A program made the translations under genes and the position numbers. Positions 20,697 to 37,054 of a stretch of 64,000 nucleotides of DNA are shown here, one piece after another. The notes under the pieces are model-generated. The model had not been told where the DNA came from. It saw only the letters and a list, made by a program, of their open reading frames with translations, and did not search any database. Positions within the stretch are counted from its first letter, which is position 1. Each line of letters begins with the position of its first letter. The stretch is from contig NZ_JASJEV010000007.1 of the NCBI RefSeq assembly GCF_030067675.1, positions 62,001-126,000 on the forward strand, read 5' to 3'. This DNA is from Chelatococcus albus. GTDB taxonomy: Bacteria > Pseudomonadota > Alphaproteobacteria > Rhizobiales > Beijerinckiaceae.

Positions 20697-23600
20697 TCAG
20701 GGAGCGCGAACGGCGACGGTGACGATGCGCACAGCGCCCCGGCCGACAGTGGCGCTCACCTGCGCGAGGCCGAGCGTCAGGCGCGCCTGGGGCATGCCGA
20801 AGTCGGCGAGCTCGTCGGCCGCCGCGTAGCGCAGCAGAGGCGCATCGGCGGCGAGGCGGCGCAGGACAGTGCCGCCCGAGAGGATGTCGGCCTCGTAGCG
20901 CTCGATGCTCTCGCCGAGCGGGATCTCCACCGGCTCCCAGGCATCGCCGCCGGTGCGGCTGCGGCGGACGAAGGCGATGTCGATTCCCGCCGGCCCGCGC
21001 CGCGCAGTTACGTGCACGGGCGGCAGCGGCGCGAGCGCGGCAGCGCCCGGCGTCGCCTCGAAGGCGAGGAATGAGGGGTCCGCGTGGTCGCGCTCGGCCG
21101 GGCCCACCCGGTAGCAGAAGGTTCGTCCCACCTCGTCGAGGCGCGTGGCGAGGGGCACGAGCGCGCGGTCGAGCACGACGGCGGGCGCGCCGGGGGCGAG
21201 CCGGCGCGCCGCCGCCGCCTCCGAGCCGCCGAGGCCGCGCAGGAGCCGCGCAAGGCGGAACGTGCCTTCGCCCACGAGCTCGGCGCGCGCCGCGGTCAGG
21301 ATCTCCCAGGTGCCGTCCGGCCCGCGCAGCGCCAGCGTGTTGGCGCCGGCGAGCGCCCGCCCGTCATCGACGGAGGTGAGCGCCCCGCCCCTGAGCCTCA
21401 CCGTCACCGTCGCGCCCTCGTCCCAGCGCCACAGCGGCCCGGGCCCGAGGGGTGACAGGGTCTCACCAAGGATCGCCGGCAGCTCTGCCACCGCATGGAG
21501 GTCGTAGGCCGCGCCGTCGCCCGAGCGCCAGACGGCGAGGCGCCCCGGCCAGGGATCGGCGAAGACGGCGAGATGCTGCAGCGGCGCCGGGCTCCCGAGG
21601 GCGAGCGGCAAGTCGAGCACCAGTGCGTGAGGCCGCCCCGGCAGGAGCGGCGGGGGCTTCGGCGCGCGCGTGAGGCGCGGGGCCGGCAGGTCGTAGACCG
21701 CAGGCTCGACGGCGCGGGCGGTGACGCGCCGTTCCGCCGCATCGGCGATGCGCGTGATGCGGAAGAGGCGCGGCGCGCTGCCCGTGGGCAGCGCCACCAC
21801 GTCGCCGACCTCGAGGTCGACGCGGCGCGGGCTCAGGCCGAACTCGGCCGTCTCGCGCCCGGTCCAGAGGTCCTGCAGCCAGATGTCGGCGAGGCGCTGG
21901 GCCTCGGCCGGACGCAGCACCGCCGCCACCTCGCCGCCGATCTCGCGGCGGCTGCCGCAGGCGAGGCGGCGCGAGGCCACGGCGGCGCGGCGATAGTCGC
22001 GCTCGCCGTCGACGAAGCCGAGGCGGATCTCGCGCGGCAGCTCCGTCTCCTGCATGCGGCGCAGGCTGAAGGCCGCGTCCTCGCGGCCGGGCACGAGCTC
22101 ATCGGCCGTGAGCGTCGCGACCGCCCGGCCGTTGCGGCCGACGAGGCGCAGGCCCGCCGCCCCCGCCACCGCGTCGAAGCCGAAGGCGCGCGCGAGCGGC
22201 TCCAGCGCCTCGCGGGCCGACATCGGCCGGTCGACGACATAGCCGTCGACGAAGCCGTCGAGGGCGATCTCGGCCGCCGGCGGCAGGCCGTGGTCCGCGA
22301 GGATCGCCGCCGCGAGCCGGTCGAGCGCAACCCCTTCGAGGCGGCCGGTGAGCCAGTGGCCGGTCTCCCAATTGGCGCCGTCGGCCCAGACCACGGAGAG
22401 GTCCGGGAAGGCCGGGAAGGGCCGCGCGTCCCAGGCCCAGGCGAAGATCCGCCCGGGGTCGACCATCGGCCCGCCGTAGACGGGCGAGATGGGGTTCGCC
22501 CCCGCCCGATGTCCCGGCTGCGCGGGATCGAAATGGGTCAGGACGGCCTCGAGGCCCCTCGTCTGCACGAGGTCGTCGCGGCGCCCGTCGGAGAAGGGCG
22601 GCAGGCCGCCCTCGGCCGATTTGGCGTCGGGGAAGACGTTCGGCGCATTGGCGCCCTTGTCCACGGCGGGCAGGCCGACCTCGGTGAGCCAGATGGGCTT
22701 CGCCCGCGGCGCCCAGGCGGTTGCGGCCGTCTCGACGCCGGCGACGCGCTCGACATGGGCGTTGCCCCACCAGCCGGCGAGATCCTTGACGCGGAACACC
22801 CAGGGCTTGCCGTAGGCGCCATCCGTGATCGGCTTGCGCGCCTGCGCCGCGCGCGCGGCGGCATCAGCATAGAACCAGTCGAAGCCCTCGCCCCCCGCGA
22901 CCTGCGACCTCAGATAGGCCGGGTCGCAGGCCGAGCGTGCCGCGGCGCGGTCATGATGGCCCGTGCCGTCGCGCCAGTCGGCGAGCGGCGGGTAGAAGTC
23001 GATGCCCACGGCATCGATCGCCGGCGAGGCCCAGAGCGGATCGAGCGGGAAGCGCACCTCCGCGCCGCCGTCGCGCACGTGGGCGCCGTACTCCGTCCAG
23101 TCCGCGGCGTAGGTGAGGCGCGTGCCGGCGCCGAGCACCGCGCGCAGGTCGGCGGCGAGCCGCACCAGTTCCTCGACCGCCGGGTAGACGCCGGGAGCGG
23201 AGCGCACGCGCGTGAGCCCCACGAGCTCGGAGCCGAGGACGAAACCCTCGACCCCGCCCGCGGCGCGGGCAAGATGGGCATAGTGCAGCGCCTGCCGCCT
23301 GAGGCTCCATTCCTCCGGGCCGCGGTAGACGACGCTTTCGCCCTCGACGGCGAATTCCCCCGGCGCCGCCCGGCCGAAGAAGGCCGAGACCTCGGCCGCG
23401 GCGGCGGGCGTCGCGTCGGGGCTGCCGGGCCGGCCCGGCGCGGGATCGCAGGTGATGCGCCCCCGCCAGGGATAGGCCGGCTGGCGCGCGGCGCCCGTCC
23501 ACGGGTCCGGCCGGACGTTGTCCGCCGGCACGTCCATCATGACGAAGGGATAGAGCACGACCTCGAGGCCGCGCGCCCTGAGTTCGCGCAGGAGACGCAG

Positions 23601-24626
23601 GATGGAGGCGTCCGAGGGCGTGCCGCCGTAGGCCGGCCGGCCGTCGACACGGCTCACCACCTGGGCGGTGGCGCGCGTCAGGCCGGCAACCGACCATTGT
23701 GCTTCGAGCGTCGCCTTCGCATCGGTCTCGACGCGCGGCGCGATGCGGCAGCGGCCGGCACGCAGATCGTCGCCGAACCAGCTCACGACGAGCGACACGC
23801 GCCGCAGGTTCGGGCACAGGCCCTGCAGCGCATCGAGCGAGGCCATGACGTCGCTCGCCCGCTGGAGCTGGTGGCGGTTCTCGGGCCGTGTCACGCCGGG
23901 ATCGAGCGCGCGGCTGACCGCAAGCGTGTCGTAGGCGAACTCGCTCGCGCCCGGGATGAGGTTGACGGCACGGAGCATGGAGCCGAGGCCTGGCACGGGC
24001 CGCACGACCTCGAAGGACAGCTGCGGAATGCGGTTGCCGAAGGGTTCGAGCGGCAGGCGCTCGAGGACGACATAGGCGAGGCCGCGGTAGGCGGGGGCGT
24101 TCTCCGCCCCCTCCTTGGCGACGATGAGCGGGTCCGGCTCCTGGTCCTCGCCGCCGCGATGCAGGCGCATGGCGAGATGGGCAAGGTCGATCTCCCTGCC
24201 GTCGGCCCAGACACGGCGCAGGAAGGCAACCGGCCCCTCGCACAGGCCGACGGCGATATTGGCGTAATAGGCATAGGTCGTCGTCACCGTGCGGGGACCG
24301 CGCGGCGCGCCCTTGCCGCCGGCGCGCGGGGCGCGGGTCACGGTGGTCGTCGCCACCTCCTCGAAGCGCGTCGCCCAGATCAGCGCGCCGCCGATGCGGG
24401 CGCGGCCGTAGACGCGCGGGATGGGCGCGCCTTCGGTCGAGGTCAGCCCCTCCATGGTCTTCAACCGCGGCCCCTCGACGTAGCGCGTGCTGCCGTCGGC
24501 GAAGAGGGCCCCGTCGACGGCCGCCCCGGCCATGGCGCCGAGCGCGCGGCCCACCACGGCCCCGACCGGTCCGCCGACGAGGCCGCCGACGGCGGCGCCT
24601 GCCACCTGCAGAACGAGTGTCGCCAT
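20697..24626 (-). CDS. GTA tail host-specificity protein (ORFg15-like, GTA TIM-barrel domain)
   Basis: 1309 residues, the usual size for the GTA g15 megatron. It begins MATLVLQVAGAAVGGLVGGP, the family start. A TIM-barrel-like region carries GIDFYPPLADWRDG, and a phage-tail (rift/FN3-like) C-terminal half follows. It forms the baseplate hub and spike that contacts the recipient cell. An in-frame ATG at 24695 would add 23 residues but does not resemble the family. The gene follows the NlpC/P60 peptidase g14 after 75 bases. Confidence 0.93.
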   Translation of the reverse strand: MATLVLQVAGAAVGGLVGGPVGAVVGRALGAMAGAAVDGALFADGSTRYVEGPRLKTMEGLTSTEGAPIPRVYGRARIGGALIWATRFEEVATTTVTRAPRAGGKGAPRGPRTVTTTYAYYANIAVGLCEGPVAFLRRVWADGREIDLAHLAMRLHRGGEDQEPDPLIVAKEGAENAPAYRGLAYVVLERLPLEPFGNRIPQLSFEVVRPVPGLGSMLRAVNLIPGASEFAYDTLAVSRALDPGVTRPENRHQLQRASDVMASLDALQGLCPNLRRVSLVVSWFGDDLRAGRCRIAPRVETDAKATLEAQWSVAGLTRATAQVVSRVDGRPAYGGTPSDASILRLLRELRARGLEVVLYPFVMMDVPADNVRPDPWTGAARQPAYPWRGRITCDPAPGRPGSPDATPAAAAEVSAFFGRAAPGEFAVEGESVVYRGPEEWSLRRQALHYAHLARAAGGVEGFVLGSELVGLTRVRSAPGVYPAVEELVRLAADLRAVLGAGTRLTYAADWTEYGAHVRDGGAEVRFPLDPLWASPAIDAVGIDFYPPLADWRDGTGHHDRAAARSACDPAYLRSQVAGGEGFDWFYADAAARAAQARKPITDGAYGKPWVFRVKDLAGWWGNAHVERVAGVETAATAWAPRAKPIWLTEVGLPAVDKGANAPNVFPDAKSAEGGLPPFSDGRRDDLVQTRGLEAVLTHFDPAQPGHRAGANPISPVYGGPMVDPGRIFAWAWDARPFPAFPDLSVVWADGANWETGHWLTGRLEGVALDRLAAAILADHGLPPAAEIALDGFVDGYVVDRPMSAREALEPLARAFGFDAVAGAAGLRLVGRNGRAVATLTADELVPGREDAAFSLRRMQETELPREIRLGFVDGERDYRRAAVASRRLACGSRREIGGEVAAVLRPAEAQRLADIWLQDLWTGRETAEFGLSPRRVDLEVGDVVALPTGSAPRLFRITRIADAAERRVTARAVEPAVYDLPAPRLTRAPKPPPLLPGRPHALVLDLPLALGSPAPLQHLAVFADPWPGRLAVWRSGDGAAYDLHAVAELPAILGETLSPLGPGPLWRWDEGATVTVRLRGGALTSVDDGRALAGANTLALRGPDGTWEILTAARAELVGEGTFRLARLLRGLGGSEAAAARRLAPGAPAVVLDRALVPLATRLDEVGRTFCYRVGPAERDHADPSFLAFEATPGAAALAPLPPVHVTARRGPAGIDIAFVRRSRTGGDAWEPVEIPLGESIERYEADILSGGTVLRRLAADAPLLRYAAADELADFGMPQARLTLGLAQVSATVGRGAVRIVTVAVRAP

Positions 24627-24701
24627 GGACGGGAAGCCTTTCGATGAAGAAAGTTGAGGAACGGCGCCGTCGCTTCGCGCGGGAAGCACTTGCATGCCCC
24701 C

Positions 24702-25157
24702 TCACCCCGCCTCCACGCCGGGGAAGCGGAAGGCGAAGGCGAGGTGGCGGCGCCACCAGGGCGTGAGCGCCACTTCCGCCACCGCCGCGCCGTCGTGGGC
24801 GTGGATCATGGCGTGCGGACCGCTCGCGATGCCGGCGTGCTTCGCGGGCAGATGGTCGCGCCAGCGGAAGAGGAGCACGTCGCCCGCGCCGAAGGCCGCC
24901 GGATCGACGGCGACGAGATGGCGGGCCGCTGCCTCGGCCAGCGCCTCACCGCCGGCGGCCTCCGCCCAGTCGGACGCATAGGGCGGCGGGAGCTCCGGCT
25001 CCGGCCCGACGACGGCGCGCCAGACGCCGCGCACGAGGCCGAGGCAGTCGCAGCCGACTCCCTTCAGGCTCGCCTGATGGCGGTAGGGCGTGCCGATCCA
25101 GGCGCGCGCCTCGGCCACCAGCGCTGTGCGGGTGATGCCGCCAGCGGCGGCGCTCAT
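24702..25157 (-). CDS. GTA NlpC/P60 peptidase (ORFg14-like)
   Basis: 151 residues. The N-terminus ALVAEARAWIGTPYRHQASL and GVGCDCLGLVRGVWR hold the catalytic Cys (the Cys before LGL, near residue 35). KHAGIAS supplies the catalytic His, followed by a Trp-rich C-terminus. The family cleaves cell-wall peptides during DNA injection. The ATG at 25157 overlaps the g13 stop by four bases (ATGA), indicating coupled translation. Confidence 0.93.
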   Translation of the reverse strand: MSAAAGGITRTALVAEARAWIGTPYRHQASLKGVGCDCLGLVRGVWRAVVGPEPELPPPYASDWAEAAGGEALAEAAARHLVAVDPAAFGAGDVLLFRWRDHLPAKHAGIASGPHAMIHAHDGAAVAEVALTPWWRRHLAFAFRFPGVEAG

Positions 25158-26047
25158 CGGAACAGGCTCCCGCCGTCGAGCCCCGCCTCGCCCTCGCGCG
25201 GCAGGCGCAGGATGAAATCGTCGCCCGGCATGTGCGGGAAGCCGCGGAAGTTCACACCGTTGCCGAACTTGTCCCGGCAGGTGGCGAAGCGCTTGTCGCA
25301 GCCCGCCGTGATGCGGAAGCTGTCGCCCACGGCGATCGGCCGCGGCATGGGCTGCCACAGCACGATCTCGGGCGCAGGCGGCGCATGGCGGTGGAGCTTC
25401 ACCTCGACGCTGCCCCCGGCATTCGCCCCGCTCGTCCAGGTGACGAGGCCGCCGGTGAACCAGCCATCCGCGTGCGCCGTGAGCCCCACGGCGGCGAAGC
25501 CGAGGCGCCCGTCCGTCGCCGTCACCCGCGCCTCGGCGGCGAAACGCGGATCGGCGAGGGCCACGCGGCAGCGGGCGTCGCCCAGGTCGGCCGAGCAGGT
25601 CGGCCGGTAGAGGCGGCCCTGCTCCTCGTCGAGGCGGTGCATGGCGCCGCGCAGCTCGGCGACGAAGGCCCGCTCGCTGCGCCGGATCTCGCCGATCGTA
25701 CCGACATCGAGGAGCAGACGTTCATCGACGTCCGACCAGTCGACGAGCCAGGTCTCGACGGCCGCTCCATCGTAGAGGCCCGATGCAAGCTCGTACTCCG
25801 TGATCCCGGCGGCGACAAGGGCGCCTGCCACCTCACCGCCGCCCACCGCGAAGCCGAGCTCGGCGGTCGCCTCCGCCGCCTCGAGGCCCGTGCGGGCGAG
25901 GAAGGCGACGCCGGCGAAGGCAAGGTCGCGGTCGTGGTCGGTGAAGCCGAGCCGCGCGCCGTCGCGGCGCGTGAGAAGCCAGCAGCGACACAGCGTCGTG
26001 GCGCCGCCCCCGAGGCGGGCGGCCAGGCCCGCGGGCAGGTTGCGCAT
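25154..26047 (-). CDS. GTA baseplate protein DUF2163 (ORFg13-like)
   Basis: 297 residues. It starts MRNLPAGLAARLGGGATTLC with GAGGAG about 8 bases upstream. The segment CRCWLLTRRDGARLGFTDHD and the C-terminus CDKRFATCRDKFGNGVNFRG are diagnostic of the DUF2163/phage BR0599 family. In RcGTA structures this family forms the hub beneath g12. It is coupled to g14 by a four-base overlap. A 184-base gap holding a dispersed repeat separates it from g12, unusual for a normally compact cluster. Confidence 0.92.
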   Translation of the reverse strand: MRNLPAGLAARLGGGATTLCRCWLLTRRDGARLGFTDHDRDLAFAGVAFLARTGLEAAEATAELGFAVGGGEVAGALVAAGITEYELASGLYDGAAVETWLVDWSDVDERLLLDVGTIGEIRRSERAFVAELRGAMHRLDEEQGRLYRPTCSADLGDARCRVALADPRFAAEARVTATDGRLGFAAVGLTAHADGWFTGGLVTWTSGANAGGSVEVKLHRHAPPAPEIVLWQPMPRPIAVGDSFRITAGCDKRFATCRDKFGNGVNFRGFPHMPGDDFILRLPREGEAGLDGGSLFR

Positions 26048-26115
26048 GCGGGATCTCCTCGGAAGGTGCCTTCCGCGCAATGCGGCGAGCCGGCAGTTGG
26101 CGCGGGCCCGCCGAT

Positions 26116-26210
26116 GGTCATCCCGGGGCGGCCGCAGGCCGCCCCGGGATGACGGGCGGAGGAGGTTGGACAGCCGCACAGCGGCTTCCGGGGTGACGGT
26201 GTGTGGTTCG
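26116..26210. repeat. Dispersed intergenic repeat, copy 3, inside GTA cluster between g12 and g13
   Basis: GTCATCCCGGGGCGGCC and GGCCGCCCCGGGATGAC form a near-perfect long hairpin. CAGCCGCACAGCGGCTTCC and GGGGTGACGG follow, the same end block found near 31.6 and 64.0 kb. Confidence 0.8.
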
Positions 26211-26230
26211 CGGCGACGAGCTGCACCGGT

Positions 26231-26875
26231 TCACGGCAGGATCTCGACGAGCGGAATGCGCGGGATCTCGCCGGCGGCGAAGGCGGCGAGGTCAATCTCG
26301 AGCGCGTCCGTGTCGAAGCGCACCGGCACGTCGAAGGCAAAGCCCGCCGTCACGGCCGCACCCGGCGGCGGCACCTCGCCGTCGCGGAAGGTGACGAGGC
26401 CGGTCGTCACGTCGCAGTCGAAATGCAGCCCCTCGACCTTCTCCGTGCCCGCGACCGCTACCCGCACGGAGCCGGCGACGGGCTTGGCGATGGGCCGCAG
26501 ATAAGGCGCGTGGGCGCCGCCGTAGGTCTTGACGAGCTGGAAGCTCGCCCGTGCCCCGTCGCCCGTGCCGAGCGCCTGGTCCTTCGGCGTCGGCGGGCGC
26601 GAGGGCGGGCCGGAGCGGAAGTCGACCCGGTCGTGCCAGCGGAAGCCGTAGAGCCGCCCGCGCCGCTCCTCGAAGAAGGCGAGGACGGCATGGAGCGCAT
26701 CGAGCGTCTTGACGCCGTAGCCGGCGTCGTAGCGGCGGCGCGAATGGGCCCAGCGCGCGTTGCGATGCTCGCGGCCGGAGCCCAGCGTGACGATGTCCGT
26801 GCGCCGCTCCGGCCCGCCGCGGCTCGCGAGCGCCACGTCGAGGGGAAAGCGCAGCTCGTGGAAATCGGCGGGCAT
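26231..26875 (-). CDS. GTA distal tail protein DUF2460 (ORFg12-like)
   Basis: 214 residues with the DUF2460 landmarks: FHELRFPLDVALASRGGPER at the start and HRNARWAHSRRRYDAGYGVK. Further on are LYGFRWHDRVDFRSG and the C-terminal GFAFDVPVRFDTDALEIDLA. It joins the tail tube to the baseplate. It starts at ATG 26875, 18 bases after the tape-measure stop. Confidence 0.93.
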   Translation of the reverse strand: MPADFHELRFPLDVALASRGGPERRTDIVTLGSGREHRNARWAHSRRRYDAGYGVKTLDALHAVLAFFEERRGRLYGFRWHDRVDFRSGPPSRPPTPKDQALGTGDGARASFQLVKTYGGAHAPYLRPIAKPVAGSVRVAVAGTEKVEGLHFDCDVTTGLVTFRDGEVPPPGAAVTAGFAFDVPVRFDTDALEIDLAAFAAGEIPRIPLVEILP

Positions 26876-26893
26876 GGGCGCACCTCCCTCGCG

Positions 26894-27547
26894 TCACAGC
26901 GCCCGCCGGCCGCGGGCCACGGCGCGGGCGACGGCGGCGGCGACCTGCGCCTCCGAGCGGCGGAAGCTCTCGACGTCGCTCGCCGCGACATTGACGGTGA
27001 CGGCAAGCGGCCGCTCGCGCCCGGCGGCCGCGCGCACGCCGAGCCGCCCGTCCGGCCCGCGGGCGAGCGGCATGATGGCCTCCGCCCCGAGCTCGCCCAT
27101 GAGCCCGAGCCCGCGCGCCAGGGGAAAATAGGTCGGCGCCGCGACGACGCCGCCCTCGGCGAAGGGCTGCACGAGGCCGCGCGCCACAACGTTGCCGCGG
27201 GCGTTGGGAACCACGAGGGGCGAGCCGAGCTGCTTGCCGACCTCCGACAGATCTGGTCCTATCGGCAGGATATTCTTGAAGAGTCCTTCCGATAACGTCT
27301 TCAGCGCCTGGGTCAGGCCGAGCTCGAGCGGCTTGAAGGCGAGGCGCGCAGCGAATTCCGAGAACTTCCTGCCCATGCCCTTGAGAACGTCATCGAATTT
27401 CCTGCCTTCGACGAGCCCCTTCGCAAAAGCATTGGAGAGAGATCGGCCGAGATCGTCGCTGAGCTTCTTGACGCTCCTGAGCTGTTCGTTGAGAGCGTCT
27501 ATTCTTTCGGGTCTGTCATCCCTGTATTCATGGTTGTCCATCTGCAT
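26894..27547 (-). CDS. GTA tail tape-measure protein (ORFg11-like)
   Basis: 217 residues, typical of the short GTA tape measure. The N-terminal part is helical (LNEQLRSVKKLSDDLGRSLS) and continues with FKPLELGLTQALKTLSEGLF. The C-terminal part has the family segments GVVAAPTYFPL, GLMGELGAEAIMPLARGPDG and VTVNVAASDVESFRRSEAQV. ATG 27547 has GGGAAGGA just upstream; ATG 27541 is an alternative. The 5' half (above about 27235) is markedly less GC-rich than the 3' half and than neighbouring genes, suggesting replacement by recombination together with the adjoining lipoprotein gene. Confidence 0.88.
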   Translation of the reverse strand: MQMDNHEYRDDRPERIDALNEQLRSVKKLSDDLGRSLSNAFAKGLVEGRKFDDVLKGMGRKFSEFAARLAFKPLELGLTQALKTLSEGLFKNILPIGPDLSEVGKQLGSPLVVPNARGNVVARGLVQPFAEGGVVAAPTYFPLARGLGLMGELGAEAIMPLARGPDGRLGVRAAAGRERPLAVTVNVAASDVESFRRSEAQVAAAVARAVARGRRAL

Positions 27548-27596
27548 TTCCTTCCCCCACCGTCACCGGCCTGGGCATCCGTTACGGTTCCTGCTC

Positions 27597-27854
27597 ATGA
27601 TCTTGGCAGCATCTCTGGCAGCCGGGTGCGTCCGCACGGCTCCCAGGCACGACGTCTACACCTTCAGGCGGATGCCCGACGCCAAGGACCCTTTTCAGAG
27701 CGCAAGGGTCTCCTGCGATTACGAATCGCAGAAATTCGCGGTCACTGCGCCGCCGGAGCGCGGCGCATCGATCATCAATCTGCAAAGGGAACAGCTCTAT
27801 CTTGCCTGCATGAAATCGAAGGGATTCCTGATGACCAAGCATTGGGAGGAATGA
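27597..27854 (+). CDS. Small putative lipoprotein inserted in the GTA cluster on the opposite strand
   Basis: About 85 residues. A short hydrophobic N-terminus runs into the lipobox LAAGC. The mature part has VSCDYESQKFAVTAPPERGA and ends LYLACMKSKGFLMTKHWEE, a layout common among small envelope lipoproteins. The ATG at 27597 gives an unusually short signal sequence with no charge and no clear ribosome binding site, so the true start is uncertain. It is divergent from g11 and lies between g11 and g10.1, where RcGTA has no gene. Base composition is lower in GC than its surroundings, arguing for transfer. Confidence 0.6.
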   Translation: MILAASLAAGCVRTAPRHDVYTFRRMPDAKDPFQSARVSCDYESQKFAVTAPPERGASIINLQREQLYLACMKSKGFLMTKHWEE

Positions 27855-28000
27855 TGCGCGGCGGCCCGCCCCATCTCTTCGCTGGCTTGCAGCCCATTCC
27901 GTCGTTCGCCCTGTCGGCCGCCTGCGCTCGCCGGCCGACAGGTTTCACCGACGAATTCCGGGAAACCGCCGGTCGAGGCCACCCGCATGGCTGCCGCCGC

Positions 28001-28100
28001 TGCGCCTTCCCGATCACCCGCATCGGTTCTGGTTCCCGGGCTCGGCCTGCGGCCGTCCCGGGATGACCGGCAACGGTTCTCGCGCGAGCCTCGCTTCCGG
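28001..28100 (-). repeat. Dispersed intergenic repeat, copy 4 (inverted), inside GTA cluster
   Basis: The reverse complement contains GGCTCGCGCGAGAACC, GGTCATCCCGGGACGG and ACCAGAACCGATGCG in the family order. It separates the inserted lipoprotein gene from g10.1. Confidence 0.8.
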
Positions 28101-28119
28101 CAGCGGCCGCCCCCGCCCG

Positions 28120-28347
28120 CTACCCGTCGGGGAAGGCGCGCATCAGCGCCGCAAGCTCCGCCCGGCCGGGCGGCGCGGGTGCGGCAGCCGGCCCGGCGAA
28201 CCCTTCGACGGCGGCGGCGAGCTCGCGCGGCGTCAGGCGCCAGAAGGCGTCGGGGCCGAGCCGCAGGACGCCGAGGCCGAAGGCCATGACCTCGCGCCAG
28301 GGGAAGGGGCGCGGCGCCCCGCCCTCCCCGCGCCCTGCGGCGATCAA
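28120..28347 (-). CDS. GTA small protein g10.1 (rcc01693/TIGR02216 family)
   Basis: 75 residues. The core FPWREVMAFGLGVLRLGPDA then FWRLTPRELAAAVEGF is diagnostic of the TIGR02216 family, encoded between the tail chaperone g10 and the tape measure. The ATG at 28347 overlaps the g10 stop (ATGA), so it is translationally coupled. It is probably part of a two-protein tail assembly chaperone with g10. Confidence 0.9.
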   Translation of the reverse strand: MIAAGRGEGGAPRPFPWREVMAFGLGVLRLGPDAFWRLTPRELAAAVEGFAGPAAAPAPPGRAELAALMRAFPDG

Positions 28348-28673
28348 GGGTTTGCCGCGTCCTCCCCGCCGCCGAAGGTCGCGGCGAGAAGCGCCACGGC
28401 GGCGCGCATGCAGGCTTCGAGCTCGCCCGCGGCCGGCAGGGCCGCCACCTCGGCGTCGGTCAGGGCGGTGCCGCCGCCGCGGATGCCGGCGGCGAGGATG
28501 CGGATGAGGTCGCGCGTCGAGGGGGCGCCCTCCGCGAGGCGGGCGCAGAGCGCCGGCAGATTGTCGGCCGCGAAGGCGGCCTCCAGCTCGGCGAGGGCGC
28601 CGAGCGTGAGGCAGAGGGTGAAGCGGCGGCCGCCGAGGACGGCCTCGACCTCGCCGCGATGCCGGTTGGCCAT
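28344..28673 (-). CDS. GTA tail assembly chaperone g10 (Phage_TAC_11 family)
   Basis: 109 residues beginning MANRHRGEVEAVLGGRRFTL, then CLTLGALAELEAAFAADNL and the Asp-Leu-Ile-Arg helix TRDLIRILAAGIRGGG. These are typical of GTA gene 10 / TAC proteins that coat the tape measure during tail assembly. It follows g9 closely and is coupled to g10.1. Confidence 0.9.
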   Translation of the reverse strand: MANRHRGEVEAVLGGRRFTLCLTLGALAELEAAFAADNLPALCARLAEGAPSTRDLIRILAAGIRGGGTALTDAEVAALPAAGELEACMRAAVALLAATFGGGEDAANP

Positions 28674-28683
28674 CGGCGCCTCC

Positions 28684-29094
28684 TCAGATGGCGGTGAAGG
28701 TGAGCTGGCCGGCGGATTCGAGGGCGAGCTCGAAGGTCACCTCGCCGGCGTGGTCGCCGCGATATTCGAGCGTCGTGACCTGGAACGGCCCCTCGACGAC
28801 GCCGAAGGCCGGCACCACCACCTGCCAGCGGCGGATCTCGCCGTCGAAGAAGATCTCGCGCACGAAGGCGTCCGACGCCTCGTCCTTGAAGATGCCCGCG
28901 CCGGTGACGCTCGCCCGGCGCACACCCGCCCCGGCGAGAAGCTCGCGCCAGCGGCCGGCGGATTCGGCGTGCGTCACGTCCACCGTCTCGGCGTTGAAGG
29001 CGATCTGGCGCGTGCGCAGGCCGGCCACAGTGGTGAAGGCGCCGACGGCGTCGGCCACCTTGAGCAAGAGGTCCTTTCCCTTCTGAGCGCCCAT
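28684..29094 (-). CDS. GTA major tail tube protein (ORFg9-like)
   Basis: 136 residues from MGAQKGKDLLLKVADAVGAF. This includes the conserved TVAGLRTRQIAFNAETVDVT, WRELLAGAGVRR and the C-terminal YRGDHAGEVTFELALESAG. The protein polymerises into the tail tube. ATG 29094 agrees with relatives; an ATG at 29118 would add eight residues (MNDGSLKP). 81 bases separate it from g8. Confidence 0.93.
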   Translation of the reverse strand: MGAQKGKDLLLKVADAVGAFTTVAGLRTRQIAFNAETVDVTHAESAGRWRELLAGAGVRRASVTGAGIFKDEASDAFVREIFFDGEIRRWQVVVPAFGVVEGPFQVTTLEYRGDHAGEVTFELALESAGQLTFTAI

Positions 29095-29175
29095 CGGCTT
29101 CAGGCTCCCGTCGTTCATCGCGTTGAAAAGGGGTGGGGCGCGCTGGCGGCGGGGCTGCGGCCACAGCTCCGCCGG

Positions 29176-29583
29176 TCACAGCTCCTCGGTCACGGCGCGC
29201 AAGGTCAGCGCCACGCGGGCGGCGCGCGCGCGCTCGTCGCGCTTCAGCTCGCAGCGCGTGACAGCGAGGAGGACGAGGCGGTGGCCCGCGAGCGTCAGCG
29301 CCGCATCGTCGAGGAGGACGCGAATCCGCTCGGCCGCCTCGAGGGCCGCTCTGGCGCCGAGGCCCTTCGCCCAGATGACGAGCGTCACCTCCTGCTCGTG
29401 GCCGCGGTCGCTTGCCGTCGAGCGGTCGGTCAGGCGCTGGTCGCCGAAGACGATTTAGAGGCCTTCCGCGGCGCGCGGCGGCTCCTCGTGGATGCGCGGC
29501 CCGCCGAGCATGGCGGCAAGCGCCGCATCGCCGGACAGCCGCGCATGGACCGCGCGGCGCAGGGCGAGGATGGGGCTCGTCAC
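29176..29583 (-). pseudogene. GTA g8 (DUF3168 tail terminator) interrupted by an in-frame TAA
   Basis: The frame begins GTG (29583), overlapping the g7 stop as GTGA with GAGGAGG upstream, so the start is secure. It reads VTSPILALRRAVHARLSGDA, then the DUF3168-like GGPRIHEEPPRAAEGL. A TAA stop at 29457-29455 (codon 43) interrupts it. The same frame then continues as IVFGDQRLTDRSTASDRGHE to the normal C-terminus RAVTEEL. Relatives have a Tyr before IVFG/VTFG, so a TAC or TAT to TAA change is the simplest cause. DUF3168 proteins terminate the tail tube. Readthrough, reinitiation or a sequencing error are alternatives to a true null. Confidence 0.85.
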
Positions 29584-29924
29584 GGCATCACCTCCTCGAC
29601 GGTGAGCACGAGGCGGCGGCGGCGCCCGTCCGGATCCGCCGCGGCGAGGATGCGGTAGAGCCGCTCGCCGTCGCGCAGGCGCAGGCGGCCGTCGACGCCG
29701 GGGCGCCAGCGCAGGACGAGGCGGCGGCGCACCGCGATCTCGGGCCGGTCGGCCACATGACGCTCGCCGGCCTCGGCGGCGGGCATGGCGCTCACCGCCG
29801 CCCAGGGGCGGGCGACGGGCGTCCAGCTGCGGGCGACGCCGCCGGCGTCGTCGGGCGCCTCCACCGGCGCCTCCAGCGTCACGCGCCGGCGCAAGGCGGC
29901 GATGGTCGTCTCGCGGAGGGTCAT
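29580..29924 (-). CDS. GTA head-tail adaptor (ORFg7-like)
   Basis: 114 residues. The basic N-terminus MTLRETTIAALRRRVTLEAP leads into GGVARSWTPVARPWAAVSAM. RRLVLRWRPGVDGRLRLRDG and YRILAAADPDGRRRRLVL follow, typical of the phage head-tail joining (Phage_H_T_join) fold. ATG 29924 overlaps the g6 stop (TGATG); GTG one codon earlier is also possible. Its own stop overlaps the g8 GTG. Confidence 0.88.
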   Translation of the reverse strand: MTLRETTIAALRRRVTLEAPVEAPDDAGGVARSWTPVARPWAAVSAMPAAEAGERHVADRPEIAVRRRLVLRWRPGVDGRLRLRDGERLYRILAAADPDGRRRRLVLTVEEVMP

Positions 29925-30496
29925 CACAGCCTCATCCGGCGGAAGGGGGCGAGGAGCACCCGCACGCCCGGCGGCAGCGCCGCCTCGGCCGCGGCCTCCC
30001 CGTCGCCGCGATGCTCGAACCAGTGGGCGGCGAGCTCCGTGACCGCCTGGCGCAGCGGCATGGGCACGGCGGCGGGATCGGCGCCGTAGCCCGCCGCGAC
30101 GTCGAGCTCGATACCGCCGCGTGCCAGCCGCGGGGGCGGCACCGGCGCGACGAGGGCGATGCGCCCCGGCTCGGCCCGCGTGTCGGTGGCGAAGGCAGCA
30201 AGCGGCAGGGGCTCGGGCGCGCCGCCGTCCCGCGCCGCAAGCCGCGCGGCGAGGAGCCCCGCAAAGGGCGTGAGCGGCACGCGCAGCACCCCCTCGGTCG
30301 GCCAGACGTCGAGCACGAGCCGCCAGGTCTGGGCGACGAGCAGGCGGCCCGATGCGGCCTCGACCATGAGGCGCGCGGCGGTGACGAGGCTCGTGACGAG
30401 GTCGTCCTCCTCGCCGGTGTCAAGGCGCAGATGGGCCTTCATCGCGGCGAGCGACACGGGCTCGACCGCAGGCCCGGAAACGAGGATCGGCGTCAT
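29924..30496 (-). CDS. GTA head-tail connector (ORFg6-like, phiE125 gp8 family)
   Basis: 190 residues. It begins MTPILVSGPAVEPVSLAAMK, then AHLRLDTGEEDDLVTSLVTA. The family feature RLLVAQTWRLVLDVWP and the C-terminus PLRQAVTELAAHWFEHRG, with GVRVLLAPFR, identify the TIGR02215 head-tail connector. It stacks on the portal ring. In relatives it lies next to the capsid gene; here the protease gene and repeats intervene. Confidence 0.9.
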   Translation of the reverse strand: MTPILVSGPAVEPVSLAAMKAHLRLDTGEEDDLVTSLVTAARLMVEAASGRLLVAQTWRLVLDVWPTEGVLRVPLTPFAGLLAARLAARDGGAPEPLPLAAFATDTRAEPGRIALVAPVPPPRLARGGIELDVAAGYGADPAAVPMPLRQAVTELAAHWFEHRGDGEAAAEAALPPGVRVLLAPFRRMRL

Positions 30497-30560
30497 GGTT
30501 CGTCCGTGTGCAAAGGGCTTGGGCTGGCGACAGGGGGCGCGCACGGTCGGCATTGGCTTG

Positions 30561-30615
30561 GCCCCGCGGCTTCCGGGGTGCCAGTCAGGGGTTCGCGCGG
30601 CAACCATCCCTTCCC
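30561..30615. repeat. Dispersed repeat fragment, copy 5, between g6 and the inserted protease
   Basis: CGCGGCTTCCGGGGTG followed by GGTTCGCGCGGCAACC reproduces the end block plus start block of the family seen near 15.08 kb, as if two repeat units were joined. Confidence 0.6.
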
Positions 30616-30664
30616 TTCCCGCCGCGCGGCCGGTAAGCCTCGCCGGCGGAACGGGAGGTGTCGC

Positions 30665-31426
30665 ATGGTTCGTTCGCTGCGCGTTGCGGCGACCGCGCTC
30701 GTCACGCTTGCCGCCGTGCCGGCCGGGGCCGTCGTCGGCGGGCGCGAGGGCGGGGCCTGGGAGCGCTCGGCCGTCATGGTGCTCGGCTCGCGCGGCAATG
30801 TCTGCTCGGGCGTGGTGCTGGCGGCGGACGTCGTGCTCACGGCCGCGCATTGCGTGAAGAACGCGCCCGAGCACCGCATCCATTTCCGCTCGGCGGCGGG
30901 CGAGCCCGTGCTCGTCACCACCGCGGGCATTGCCGTGCATCCGGGCTACCGCGCCGAGGCGGTCGCGAGGCGCGAGCGCTCGGTGGACATCGCCCTCGTG
31001 CGCCTCGCCGAGCCTCTGCCGGACAGCTTCGCGCCGGCACGCCTCTCCGCCGCCGCGCCGCCCGCGGCGGGAACCCGCCTTGCGCTCGGTGGCTACGGGG
31101 TGGCGCGCGAGGACGAGCCGCGGTCGAGCGGCACCTTCCGCACCGCCGACCTCGCCGCCGTCGAGCCCTATGGCCGCGGCGCCATCCTCGTCTGGCTCGC
31201 CGACCCGGCGGGGCTCGGCAAGCGTCCCGGCGCCGGGGCCTGCGAGGGTGATTCCGGCGGCCCCATCGCCGACGGGGGAAGCATCGTTGCCGTGACGAGC
31301 TGGTCGACCGGAGCGGGCAAGGCGACCTGCGGCCTCCTCACCCAGGGCATCGCCCTCGGCCCCCAGCGCGCCTGGATCGACGCAACGCTCGCCCGCTGGG
31401 GGCGGATGGCGCAGTGGGGGGAGTAG
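30665..31426 (+). CDS. Secreted trypsin-like serine protease (S1A) inserted in the GTA cluster
   Basis: 253 residues. A signal peptide (MVRSLRVAATALVTLAAVPA) is followed by VVGGREG, which resembles a zymogen activation site. The triad is His in LTAAHC (near 60), Asp in VDIALVRL (near 108) and Ser in GDSGGPI (near 196). Cys pairs are consistent with disulphides. The ATG at 30665 has GGGAGG about 5 bases upstream. It is read opposite to all GTA genes and lies between capsid g5 and connector g6, flanked on both sides by dispersed repeats. It is not part of the known GTA set. It is exported and probably degrades envelope or external proteins. Confidence 0.88.
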   Translation: MVRSLRVAATALVTLAAVPAGAVVGGREGGAWERSAVMVLGSRGNVCSGVVLAADVVLTAAHCVKNAPEHRIHFRSAAGEPVLVTTAGIAVHPGYRAEAVARRERSVDIALVRLAEPLPDSFAPARLSAAAPPAAGTRLALGGYGVAREDEPRSSGTFRTADLAAVEPYGRGAILVWLADPAGLGKRPGAGACEGDSGGPIADGGSIVAVTSWSTGAGKATCGLLTQGIALGPQRAWIDATLARWGRMAQWGE

Positions 31427-31440
31427 GGCGCCCGCGACGA

Positions 31441-31640
31441 CGGGCCACGGTTCGCGCGGCAACCGCCCCCCGTCATCCCGGGGCCGGGCGCAGCGAGGAG
31501 CCCGGGATCCAGAGCCGATGCGCGTGATCGAGACGGCGCGCCGGCCGCCGCGTCCTTGCCACAACCGGGATCGTTTCCGGGCCCCGGACAGCCGCTGCCG
31601 CGGCTTCCGGGGTGACGGGAAGAGGCTCGCGCGGCGGCCT
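31441..31640 (+). repeat. Dispersed intergenic repeat, copy 6 (most complete), beside capsid gene
   Basis: The copy shows GGTTCGCGCGGCAACC, CGTCATCCCGGGGCCGGG and CGCAGCGAGGAGCCCGGGAT. Then come AGAGCCGATGCG, a spacer, GGACAGCCGCTGCCGCGGC and TTCCGGGGTGACGGG. It ends at the capsid stop codon and serves as a reference for the other copies. Confidence 0.8.
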
Positions 31641-31642
31641 CC

Positions 31643-32890
31643 TCACGCCGCGAACTTCAGCAGCTTGATCGCCTCGAAGTCCTGCACGCCGCCGCCGACG
31701 CGCTTCGTCGTGTAGAAGAGCACGTAGGGCTTCGCCGAGAAGGGGTCACGCAGCACGCGCACGCCCGCCCGATCGACGACGAGATAGCCGCGGCGGAAGT
31801 CGCCGAAGGCGACCGACAGGCTGTCGGCGCCGACGTTCGGCATGTCCTCCGCCTCGACGACGGGAAAGGTCATCAGTGTCGCCTGCCCGCCGGCAGCGGC
31901 CGGCGGCTGCCAGAGGTAGTTGCCCTGCCCGTCCTTGAACTTGCGGATGAGGCTCTGCGTCTTGCGGTTCATGACGAAGACGGCGTTCTGGCGGTAGCCG
32001 CTCTTCAGCGCATAGACGAGGTCGACGAGCACGTCGGAGGGGCTCGACGCCGGGAAGGCGCCGGCCGCGCCCGTCGACACGGTGCCGAGCTTGCCCCAGC
32101 TCCAGTTGCCGTTCGCCACCGTCTCGTAGCTCAGGAAGCCCTTCGGCTTGCCGACGCCGTCGCCGGCGACGAAGGCCGCGCCCTCCTGCTCGGCGAAGGC
32201 GGTCTCCACCTCCTCGGCGAGCCACTGGTCGACGTCGACCACGGCGTCGTCGAGCAGCGTCTGGGTCGCCGCCGGCATGGCGTAGAGCTCCATCGCCGGG
32301 AAGGAGAGCTCGGCGAGCGTCGGGCTCGCGGTCTGGGCGCGCGGGGCGCTCTCGGCCACCCAGCCGACCGCCGGGGCGCCGGTGGAACGGGCCGTCTTGT
32401 AGGTGCCGGACGAGACGACGCGGACGGAGGCGACGGCACGGATGGGCGAGACCGTGGCGAGCCGGCGCAGGACCTCGCGCTCCACCTCGGCCGGTACGAG
32501 ATAGCCGCCGTCCGGGCCCGCGCCGGCGGACAGCGCCTTCGCCTCCAGGTGCTTCAGCCCGGCCGCCTCCCCCGAGCGCATGTAGGCGTCGAAGGCGGCC
32601 TTGTGCTCGGCGGCGGCGGGGTCGGCCGGCACCGCGGCCGCGCCGAGGGCTGGCCGGCGGGCGTCGAGCGTCATCCGCTCGAGCCGCCGCTTCGTCTCGT
32701 CGAGGGCGGCGTCGATGCGGGCGAGCTTCTCCTCGGTGAGGACGTCGGCGGCGAGCCGCGTCTCGATCTCACCGATGCGGGCGTCGTTCGTCTCGCGGAA
32801 GGCGGCGAAGGCGCGCGAGAAATCCTCGAAGGCGGCGGCGACGTCGGCGCCGCCGGCCTTCGTCTCGGGGGCGGGATGGTCCATGGTCAT
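31643..32890 (-). CDS. GTA major capsid protein (ORFg5-like, HK97 fold)
   Basis: 415 residues. An N-terminal helical scaffold-like region (RIGEIETRLAADVLTEEKLA, then LARIDAALDETKRRLE) would be removed by the g4 protease. The HK97 shell domain follows: GYLVPAEVEREVLRRL, then LAEEVETAFAEQEGAAFVAG, and GFLSYETVANG. The C-terminal DFRRGYLVVDRAGVRVLRDP is also conserved. ATG 32890 is preceded by a GA-rich ribosome binding site; an upstream in-frame start lacks support. Confidence 0.95.
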   Translation of the reverse strand: MTMDHPAPETKAGGADVAAAFEDFSRAFAAFRETNDARIGEIETRLAADVLTEEKLARIDAALDETKRRLERMTLDARRPALGAAAVPADPAAAEHKAAFDAYMRSGEAAGLKHLEAKALSAGAGPDGGYLVPAEVEREVLRRLATVSPIRAVASVRVVSSGTYKTARSTGAPAVGWVAESAPRAQTASPTLAELSFPAMELYAMPAATQTLLDDAVVDVDQWLAEEVETAFAEQEGAAFVAGDGVGKPKGFLSYETVANGNWSWGKLGTVSTGAAGAFPASSPSDVLVDLVYALKSGYRQNAVFVMNRKTQSLIRKFKDGQGNYLWQPPAAAGGQATLMTFPVVEAEDMPNVGADSLSVAFGDFRRGYLVVDRAGVRVLRDPFSAKPYVLFYTTKRVGGGVQDFEAIKLLKFAA

Positions 32891-32918
32891 GCGAAATCCT
32901 CTCTCCTCCTGCGGATGG

Positions 32919-33455
32919 TCACGGGGCGAGTTCATGCGCGGCGCGGCGGATGGCTTCGGCAAGGGCTGCCGACCGGTCGGTGCCCCTGCCCTTGACGCCG
33001 GTCACGCGCGCGCCGGGCAGCATGGGAAAGGTGACGAGCGAGATCTCCCACAGATCGACTTTGGCGATGTGCCTCACGCGCGTGCGCGGATCGGTGCGGG
33101 CCCGCTCGGTGCGGAAGCCGATGGACAGGCCGTCGACGGCCCCCTCGCTCAGAAGCGCGTGGATCTCCCGGGCCCGTGCCACGGCGAGGTTGAGACGGCC
33201 GCGCGCCTTGAGGCCGCGCCCGTCCTCGGCGAGCGACAGCCAGCGGCCGAGCGGCTCGGCCGGGTCGTGCTGCCAGAGCAGGCGCACGCCGCCGGCGCCG
33301 CGGCGAGCGAGGCTCTCGGCAAAGGCGCCGGGCTCGATCACGTCGCGGCCGAGGTCGGGCACGCCGAAGAGGCTGGCATAGCCCTCGAACTCGCCGTCGG
33401 GGGCGCCCGCCGCGGGCGGCGCGGGCCACAGCTTCACCTCTAGGCCTGCCGTCAT
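32919..33455 (-). CDS. GTA prohead protease (ORFg4-like, HK97 family)
   Basis: 178 residues. FEGYASLFGVPDLGRDVIEP then GAFAESLA starts the U35/HK97 prohead protease fold. RLLWQHDPAEPLGRW holds the catalytic His and AVDGLSIGFRT the catalytic Ser. LWEISLVTFPM completes the core. It cuts the capsid N-terminal domain during maturation. The ATG at 33455 overlaps the stop of the preceding 57-codon gene (ATGA). Confidence 0.93.
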   Translation of the reverse strand: MTAGLEVKLWPAPPAAGAPDGEFEGYASLFGVPDLGRDVIEPGAFAESLARRGAGGVRLLWQHDPAEPLGRWLSLAEDGRGLKARGRLNLAVARAREIHALLSEGAVDGLSIGFRTERARTDPRTRVRHIAKVDLWEISLVTFPMLPGARVTGVKGRGTDRSAALAEAIRRAAHELAP

Positions 33456-33625
33456 CGGCGCCCTCCCGCTGCCGAGGGCTCCCGCGCCGGCGTGGTCCTG
33501 CCCGCAGCGGGCTCCAGCCGCTCCAGCACGCGCAGGAAGGTGGCGATCACCGCCCCTTCCCGCCCCGGCACAGGTTCTGCAGGCGAAACGCGCCCGGCGG
33601 CGCGCGGCGGTCGTCGTCGCGTCAT
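33452..33625 (-). CDS. Unrecognised 57-residue protein tiled between g3.5 and g4
   Basis: It starts MTRRRPPRAAGRVSPAEPVP and continues GREGAVIATFLRVLERLEPA with a short Arg/Ala-rich tail. A probable amphipathic helix is VIATFLRVLERLE. I do not recognise a family. The support is positional: its ATG overlaps the g3.5 stop by ATGA and its stop overlaps the g4 ATG by ATGA, so it exactly fills a gap in a chain of coupled genes. It is too short for most gene callers. Confidence 0.55.
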   Translation of the reverse strand: MTRRRPPRAAGRVSPAEPVPGREGAVIATFLRVLERLEPAAGRTTPAREPSAAGGRR

Positions 33626-33813
33626 TCCTCATCTCCCGAAAAGCGGCGGTTGAAGCGGGCGAGCTCGCGCACGAAGGCGTCGAAGCGCCGGTTGGCGGCG
33701 GCGAGCTCGCGCAGGGTGAGGGTGAGCAGCGCGGAAGCCCCGCTCGCCCACAGGAAGAGGGCGAGATGGGCGAGGTCGCCACGCGTCACGATGGCCTCGG
33801 TGACGGACGTCAT
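33622..33813 (-). CDS. GTA small membrane protein (g3.5-like)
   Basis: 63 residues: MTSVTEAIVTRGDLAHLALF leads into one transmembrane helix (about 15-35). A charged amphipathic tail follows (ANRRFDAFVRELARFNRRFS). A gene of this size and topology between portal and protease is usual in GTA clusters (g3.5); its role is unknown. It is coupled to the following 57-codon gene by ATGA. Confidence 0.75.
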   Translation of the reverse strand: MTSVTEAIVTRGDLAHLALFLWASGASALLTLTLRELAAANRRFDAFVRELARFNRRFSGDEE

Positions 33814-33844
33814 GATTGCCGTTTCCCGCGCGAATCTCTGACCG

Positions 33845-33890
33845 TCATTGGCGTTCCCGCGAACACTCCCCCGTCACCCCGGAAACGATC
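33845..33890 (-). repeat. Dispersed repeat end block, copy 7, overlapping the portal 3' end
   Basis: On the minus strand TTTCCGGGGTGACGGGGGAG is followed by TGTTCGCGGGAACGCC, the end block plus start block of the family. It extends into the coding sequence and supplies the portal stop context. Confidence 0.6.
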
Positions 33891-35089
33891 GCGGTGCCGG
33901 CAAGGGCGCGGCGGCCGTAGCCGACGGCCTCGCGCTTCTCGTCGGCGGTGAGGAAGTCGGCCGTGGTGACGCGCCGCCACAGGGCCTCGCGCTCGGTCGA
34001 GAGCGCCTCGACGGCGTCGAGGTCGGGCGTGAGGCGGAGCCCCTGGCCGAAGGCCGGGCCGAGCCAGTGGACGAGGCTCGCCGCCGTGCGCTGCACGAGG
34101 GGGATGACGGTCTGGCGCCAGAAGGCGCGGTTCGCCTCGGCGTAGTTGGCATAGGTGTTGTCCCCGGGCAGGCCGAGGAGGAGCGGCGGCACGCCGAAGG
34201 CGAGCGCGATCTCGCGCGCCGCCGCCGCCCGCGCCTCGACGAAGTCCATGTCCTTCGGCGTCAGCGACAGCGGCTTCCAGTCGAGCCCGCCCTCGAGCAG
34301 CATGGGCCGCCCGGCGTTGGCCGCGCCCTGGTAGCTCTCCTCGAGCTCGGCCTTCAGCCGCTCGAACTGCGTCTCCGTCAGGTTGACGCCGGCCGGCCCC
34401 GCATAGACGAGCGCCCCCGAGGGCCGGGCCGCATTGTCGAGGAGCGCCTTGTTCCAGGCGCCCGCGGCATTGTGCACGTCGAGGGCGACGGCCGCCGCCT
34501 CGAGCGGCGCGAGGCCGTAGTGGTCGTCGAGCGGGTTGAAGAGCTTCAGGTGCAGGACCGGCGGCACGCCGCCGGGCTCCGCCCGCTGGGACATGCGCAC
34601 GGTCTCGGCGCCCACGGCGTAGTCGTAGGCTTCCGGCCAGCCGTCGGCTCCCGGCACGACGCGCACGCGGTCGGGCCTGAGCGCATAGAGTTCGCGCGGG
34701 CGCCCGTCGACGGAAACCGCCTCGAGATAGGCATTGCCGGCGACGAGCAGGTGGCCGTAGACGGCTTCGAGCAGCACCGCGCCCGTCTCGCGCAGGTTGG
34801 GCCGGGCGAGGAGGGCGAGAAGCGGATGCTCGTCGCGCTCGCGCGCGCCCTCGTAGAGCAGGAGCGGCAGGAAGGCCGCCGCCTCCGCCACCAGACGGAC
34901 GCAGCGGTGCACGACGGCGTTGCGCTTCAGCCCCTCGCGGGCGAGCGCCGCATAGTCGCGCGGCGTCCACACCGGACGCCCGGCGGCGTAGAGCGCCATG
35001 ACCGGGGCGACGCGCGAGGCCTTGACGTCGGGAGCAGCCGCGCGGGTGCGCCCCGCGCCCCCGAGCGGGCGGGAAAGAAGAGAGGGCAT
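33845..35089 (-). CDS. GTA portal protein (ORFg3-like, HK97 type)
   Basis: 414 residues from MPSLLSRPLGGAGRTRAAAP. Conserved portal segments include GLKRNAVVHRCVRLVAEAAA, GNAYLEAVSVDGRPRELYAL and HLKLFNPLDDHYGLAPLEAA. FGVPPLLLGLPGDNTYANYA and the C-terminal LDAVEALSTEREALWRRVT are also typical. It forms the dodecameric DNA gate. The last roughly 13 residues (VSGVTGECSRERQ) are encoded by a copy of the dispersed repeat (TTCCGGGGTGACGGGG), so the natural C-terminus has been rewritten by repeat insertion. Confidence 0.94.
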   Translation of the reverse strand: MPSLLSRPLGGAGRTRAAAPDVKASRVAPVMALYAAGRPVWTPRDYAALAREGLKRNAVVHRCVRLVAEAAAFLPLLLYEGARERDEHPLLALLARPNLRETGAVLLEAVYGHLLVAGNAYLEAVSVDGRPRELYALRPDRVRVVPGADGWPEAYDYAVGAETVRMSQRAEPGGVPPVLHLKLFNPLDDHYGLAPLEAAAVALDVHNAAGAWNKALLDNAARPSGALVYAGPAGVNLTETQFERLKAELEESYQGAANAGRPMLLEGGLDWKPLSLTPKDMDFVEARAAAAREIALAFGVPPLLLGLPGDNTYANYAEANRAFWRQTVIPLVQRTAASLVHWLGPAFGQGLRLTPDLDAVEALSTEREALWRRVTTADFLTADEKREAVGYGRRALAGTAIVSGVTGECSRERQ

Positions 35090-35109
35090 GGTGTCGCTTT
35101 CGCAGGAAG

Positions 35110-35143
35110 AGACAGCCGCTGACGCAGCTCCCGGGTAACGGTG
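35110..35143 (+). repeat. Dispersed repeat fragment, copy 8, between portal and terminase
   Basis: ACAGCCGCTGACGCAGCTCC followed by CGGGTAACGG is a degenerate version of the family end block (CAGCCGCTGCCGCGGCTTCC, then GGGGTGACGG). Confidence 0.45.
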
Positions 35144-35166
35144 GTGGAGGAGGGTGCCCCCTTCGC

Positions 35167-36549: not shown

Positions 36550-36943
36550 CCATCTTTCGCGCGTCGCGGGCGTCGAACGCCGTGAGCTCCCGCATGGTCC
36601 TGACGACCACGGCGAGCGCGCGGGCGTCGCGCTCGCGCGTCGCCGCCCCCTCCCCGCCGGCTTCGAGCCGCCCGGCGATGTCGCGCACCTGCAGCGCGGC
36701 CGCGCGCCAGATGCGGTCGACCAGGGCGGCGCGGTGCTTCGGCCCCCAGTGCGACGTCCGCGGGTGACAGCGGCGCAGCGGCAGCGGCTCGGCCACCAGC
36801 TCGCCCCCGGCACCGTACCCCGCGAGCCAGCGGTAGAGCCGGCTGCCGCCGACCTTCAGGTCGGCCCGGATGCGCGCCACGGGCACGCCCTCGGCATAGA
36901 GCCGGCGCGCGTATGCGGCGGCCTCGCCATCGTCCTCGACCAT
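36458..36943 (-). CDS. GTA g1, small terminase-like DNA-binding protein
   Basis: 161 residues from MVEDDGEAAAYARRLYAEGV. A helix-turn-helix follows (VARIRADLKVGGSRLYRWLA), then RCHPRTSHWGPKHRAALVDR and a helical region (IWRAAALQVRDIAGRLEAGG). The acidic C-terminus (DDGDDDTGPRDLDDFRREL) includes LAERLDRLRAEE. Position and architecture match the GTA g1/TerS that feeds DNA to TerL. ATG 36943 has AGG about 6 bases upstream; ATG 36955 and 37048 are in frame. It is the first gene after the cluster promoter. Confidence 0.75.
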   Translation of the reverse strand: MVEDDGEAAAYARRLYAEGVPVARIRADLKVGGSRLYRWLAGYGAGGELVAEPLPLRRCHPRTSHWGPKHRAALVDRIWRAAALQVRDIAGRLEAGGEGAATRERDARALAVVVRTMRELTAFDARDARKMDDGDDDTGPRDLDDFRRELAERLDRLRAEE

Positions 36944-37054
36944 GCGATGCCTCATCCTCGGAAGGGGCGATCCCGCCCGGGGCCGGTGCAGGTCCGCAAG
37001 GCCCGCGGCCTCGGCCGGCGATGCGCCCCGGACGCAATTGTGGAGCATGGCCGA

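Follow-up and report, generated by a model that had tools for sequence, protein, structure and literature searches.

The window analysed here, a stretch of 64,000 nucleotides from Chelatococcus albus, contains a head-tail gene cluster that appears, by gene content and order, to be of the RcGTA type (Table 1), named for Rhodobacter capsulatus. A gene transfer agent (GTA) is a domesticated phage by which host DNA passes from cell to cell. The g numbers are those which, on our assumption, follow RcGTA gene order. Each of the 17 genes of the cluster has a match in three of three genus mates (G001–G003), with gene order unchanged, and the matches were single and full-length or nearly so, except that of g1, which covered only the last ~90 residues. 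The upper end of the cluster (37048) is the start of the ORF in the g1 position. Pfam named seven of the eight proteins scanned (the products of g2, g5, g7, g9, g10, g11, g12, and g15), as terminase, capsid, head completion, tail tube, GTA-gp10, DUF2460, and GTA_TIM/Phage-tail_3, and gave no match for the g11 product. The 16 genes other than g8 had no internal stop, where several gene starts were set by homology and a frame is called open across the homologous stretch. The initial annotation had regarded the GTA as otherwise complete, and these open frames, in an order shared with the three genus mates, agree with that view. Apparent stops in g2 of G001 and G003 were judged not to be lesions, as they lie ahead of the conserved part of g2, in sequence that aligns poorly and where g2 overlaps g1.

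Table 1. Position of g8, its internal stop, and genes of the surrounding putative RcGTA-type cluster in the window.
Feature	Position	Strand	Remarks
Whole putative GTA head-tail cluster, g1–g15	20697..37048	minus	17 genes counted; 16 open, g8 broken
g2, terminase large subunit (PF03237, PF17289)	35167..36720	minus	start approximate
g5, major capsid (PF05065)	31643..32890	minus	start approximate
g7, head completion/stopper (PF05521)	29580..29927	minus	stop overlaps g8 start
g8, tail terminator (PF11367)	29176..29583	minus	one internal stop; supported by translation, Pfam, profile, and fold match
g8 coding part ahead of the stop	29458..29583	minus	42 residues; predicted helices 4–17 and 20–26
Internal TAA, codon 43 of g8	29455..29457	minus	Tyr in 28/40 relatives
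Candidate restart ORF after the stop, GTG start	29176..29388	minus	70 aa; only sizeable one; no spaced ribosome-binding site
g9, tail tube (PF06199)	28684..29094	minus	0.81–0.84 identity to genus mates
g10 (PF11836)	28344..28673	minus	
g15 (GTA_TIM PF13547, Phage-tail_3 PF13550)	20697..24623	minus	start approximate

Several further features were seen around the cluster. A gene for a DUF2793 and glycine-rich protein (19350–20660, minus strand) lies directly downstream of g15 and is perhaps a tail-fibre gene of the GTA. Similar short intergenic sequences at about 27980–28070 and 31480–31560 of the window flank inserted cluster genes; both translate to ITRIGSGSRA in spurious ORFs, and they resemble copies of a dispersed repeat. 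An open frame at 61192–62118 (plus strand), about 24 kb from the cluster, encodes a 308-aa protein with DUF6456 (PF20057), a domain matched nowhere else in the genome. We take this domain to be linked to the GTA activator GafA, and the protein is a possible GafA-like activator candidate.

A trypsin-like (S1, PF00089) protease gene was observed between g5 and g6, at 30665–31426 of the window (start approximate), on the plus strand and thus opposite to the GTA genes. It occupies the same place in all three genus mates, and a relative also lies next to the cluster in Rhodoplanes (L037) and Nitrobacter (L038). At least 92 of the 131 family-level genomes with a PF11367 match have a relative of the protease 0–3 kb upstream of that match and on the opposite strand, at a median distance of 1,077 bases, and none was found within 3 kb on the same strand among the matches listed. 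A literature search for a protease in GTA clusters gave nothing evidently about it. GTA release in Caulobacter is described as requiring LypABC, which contain trypsin-like peptidase domains (PMC13236601); LypABC are multi-domain proteins. This divergent protease in GTA clusters across the family may be of more interest than the stop in g8.

Translation of the minus strand from 29583 to 29176 gave 42 residues, a TAA (29457–29455), 92 residues, and a TGA. The frame is open apart from the TAA, no second lesion was detected within g8, and the sequence after the stop is conserved in frame. The in-frame ochre stop reported in the initial annotation is therefore present, in a gene on the minus strand, a strand which that annotation had left unnamed. 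The start, which had been considered secure, was also confirmed: the GTG overlaps the g7 stop (GTGA), GAGGAGG lies upstream, and g8 of all three genus mates begins with a GTG at the aligned place, likewise overlapping the g7 stop. These aligned starts rule out a g8 that begins downstream of the stop, an arrangement in relatives that the initial annotation had named as speaking against its reading and that is not seen in these three genomes.

The read-through stretch matched PF11367 (Tail_completion_gp17), which we take to be the former DUF3168, over positions 1–124 of 124 (E = 7.2e-20; 73 bits, cut-off 24.5 bits), with one TAA inside the match. A profile built without g8 of this genome gave 140 bits over positions 1–124. 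No second PF11367 match was found in the genome, g8 being the sole one, which rules out a spare copy of this family. Identity of g8 to the genus mates was 0.52–0.53 (0.42–0.84 for the other cluster genes), and its third-position GC of 0.92 was ordinary for the cluster. As both values are within the cluster norm, they give no sign of older relaxation. The genus mates are distant relatives by this measure of identity, and a recent lesion would leave little trace in dN/dS.

The codon at the stop was examined in an alignment of 40 relatives, comprising the three genus mates, the 30 best-scoring family loci, and seven named loci; a weak second match (L005) was excluded. Tyr was present in 28 relatives (15 TAC, 13 TAT), including all three genus mates (TAC), followed by Phe in four, Arg in four, Cys in two, Trp in one, and Thr in one; a stop codon was present in none of the 40. 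The Tyr that had been expected in this column is thus the majority residue, though not a universal one, and TAA is one substitution away from either Tyr codon.

We further examined how rare such a stop is. A family-level genome search gave a PF11367 match in 131 of 199 genomes (149 rows; 130 genomes above the cut-off), and a class-level search gave one in 63 of 387 (58 above the cut-off), so that a few of the matches counted lie below it. In both searches an internal stop was found in this genome only. With four genomes (G000, G004, G011, and G028) common to the two lists, 190 distinct genomes had a match, which need not always be a GTA gene, and 189 of them had no internal stop. Among the IMG/VR matches listed, 80 loci had g9 relatives, 75 of these had a g8 profile match, and 72 of the 75 matches spanned at least 100 profile positions. 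None of the 75 listed had a clean nonsense substitution in g8, and two (L144 and L167), both on GTA-like contigs, were broken, each by frameshift. These frameshifts are possibly sequencing errors (L144 also has unresolved bases), and they indicate that g8 lesions are not unheard of in draft data. The exact pattern around the stop, with the third codon base left free, did not occur in viral contigs; a search for near-identical GTA DNA gave one distant protein match in phage records and eight distant matches in plasmid records, none of which covered 80% of the query. No conspecific copy was thus found in these three collections, which says little, because they may omit records of this or near genomes.

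A model of read-through g8, built from an alignment of 27 sequences, had a mean pLDDT of 94.8 and comprised, in a 135-residue fold, helices at residues 4–17, 20–26, and 77–91 and strands at 41–53, 61–73, 101–116, and 121–134. Its best match among solved structures was 6tba chain 4A (E = 5.3e-12, TM 0.87/0.88), and the next matches were phage tail terminators and neck proteins, among other entries. Read-through g8 is thus confidently predicted to have the fold of the RcGTA tail terminator. On this model, the 42-residue product would keep both N-terminal helices but only two residues of strand 1, at its beginning, and would have no barrel. The RcGTA terminator itself (g8, Rcc01690; PDB 6tba, 6te9, 6toa, and 6tui) matched in sequence over residues 7–132 (E = 7e-8); it likewise lies between g7 and g9 and, in the pairwise alignment, has Tyr at the position of the stop, but the copy in C. 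albus is cut after 42 residues. According to the structural report (PMC7296036), Rcc01690 forms a hexamer that is bound to the stopper and links it to the tail tube; helix 1 contacts the stopper, and the tail tube attaches at a long loop together with strands 4 and 6.

In 104 kb scanned for coding potential, 77 stops were tested, each closing a coding-looking stretch of 40 codons; the scan is blind to frameshifts and to stops less than 40 codons from a gene end. Beyond six of the 77, the frame again looked coding, and five of these stops (38074, 29178, 26896, 20699, and 16650) appeared by eye to be normal ends of genes with a neighbour or a spacer behind them. The stop at 29457 was the only one judged to lie inside a gene. 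Among the 14,073 coding bases considered, 304 sites are targets for a nonsense change. From the absence of a second lesion, the divergence since inactivation, if neutral, was bounded at about 1% when only nonsense changes are considered, and at 0.2–0.3% if indels amount to 5–10% of substitutions, a ratio that we assumed. The lack of further decay in g8 or its partners is what either a very recent event or an error would leave.

The best explanation of these results, to which we give a probability of roughly 0.7, is that a real and very recent one-base nonsense mutation in g8 has made the strain a GTA non-producer. One substitution to TAA would have disabled the tail terminator of a GTA, apparently of the RcGTA type, that is intact in other respects. 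Translation would end with the two N-terminal helices and provide no barrel for the hexameric ring that links the stopper to the tail tube; tails would then be uncapped and unjoined to heads, and no DNA-delivering particles would be made. Through polarity, early termination may also reduce expression of g9–g15. The strain, which would produce no GTA, may still receive DNA. The pattern that favours a very recent loss of particle production, as the initial annotation had proposed, consists of a single lesion, an open cluster, and the removal of most of the fold; the loss of particles itself we infer, since no g8 knockout is described in the literature consulted, where a search on g8 of GTAs gave no paper. 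A further reading, in which the first mutation of a natural GTA cheater is seen here, with selection in nature or culture having favoured the non-producer, is doubtful to us. On this reading the strain keeps the whole cluster and the DUF6456 regulator candidate, and presumably DNA uptake, with the lesion at the step of tail capping and head joining.

The chief competitor of a real mutation is an error of sequencing or assembly, in which case the organism would have a sense codon here and an intact GTA. We consider this clearly the less probable explanation, but one to be taken seriously. The assembly is a draft of 37 contigs, the stop recurs in none of the other genomes among the 190, and a lone lesion in an otherwise open cluster is what a random error would leave, so that the single lesion is equally compatible with an error and with a recent mutation. 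Against this, the assembly was rated 99.87% complete and 0.07% contaminated, and the consensus error rate of assemblies is generally low. The lesion is moreover a substitution rather than an indel, and no second internal stop was found among those tested in the 104 kb; these two points make an error less likely.

It is very improbable, in our estimation, that the stop is functional, with the UAA read through or translation restarted so that the terminator is made whole or in two pieces, perhaps in small, regulating amounts. The in-frame conservation past the stop is what such a mechanism predicts, and the cluster otherwise looks maintained, but that conservation is expected anyway after a recent mutation, and the stop in g8 is absent from the genus mates and the other genomes searched. 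RF00005 gave 44 tRNA matches, and ARAGORN found one Tyr(GUA) gene and no UUA anticodon, which would read UAA, among them; a suppressor tRNA is ruled out among the tRNA genes found, in a list that is incomplete, with no Ile(GAU) gene in it, for example. No sign of recoding was seen elsewhere, either as another stop judged internal in the 104 kb or in g8 of the genus mates. For a restart, the first in-frame ATG, GTG, or TTG past the stop is the GTG at 29388, which an AGGAG touches with no spacer, and the 70-residue product would, on the model, lack residues 1–65, which comprise the two N-terminal helices, all of strand 1, and five residues at the beginning of strand 2. Even less credible is that g8 had become dispensable through an earlier replacement by another terminator protein. 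That analogues may take the place of GTA genes is considered possible in the literature (PMC9765227). However, the genome has no other PF11367 match, a result that concerns this family only, and both the g7–g8 overlap and the reading frame past the stop are intact. Of the three outcomes put forward in the initial annotation (recent loss, read-through or restart, and error), the loss is thus supported by the pattern, and read-through or restart has no support from the tRNA genes found or the unspaced GTG.

If the stop is real, the strain has a clean single-lesion GTA-minus genotype, and typing of g8 in other isolates would test the prediction of the cheater model that non-producers invade producer populations; the stop is of interest mainly as a possible starting point for such a population test. 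If it is an error, it shows why reads should be consulted before a GTA is declared dead. A literature search on premature stop codons in alphaproteobacterial GTAs gave nothing that, judged by its listing, was on topic, and one on pseudogenization of GTA head-tail genes gave a single paper (PMC10883770). In it, pseudogenized alphaproteobacterial GTA clusters are discussed as possible recent cheater lineages. The importance first attached to the stop was accordingly generous, since this kind of event and its cheater reading are already published there, and the g8 stop would be a further example. As in those clusters, an inactivated gene lies here in a cluster of apparent RcGTA type. The passages on pseudogenization do not name g8; in comparison with the clusters they describe, the present one has one lesion only, in the named structural gene g8, and would be at a very early stage.
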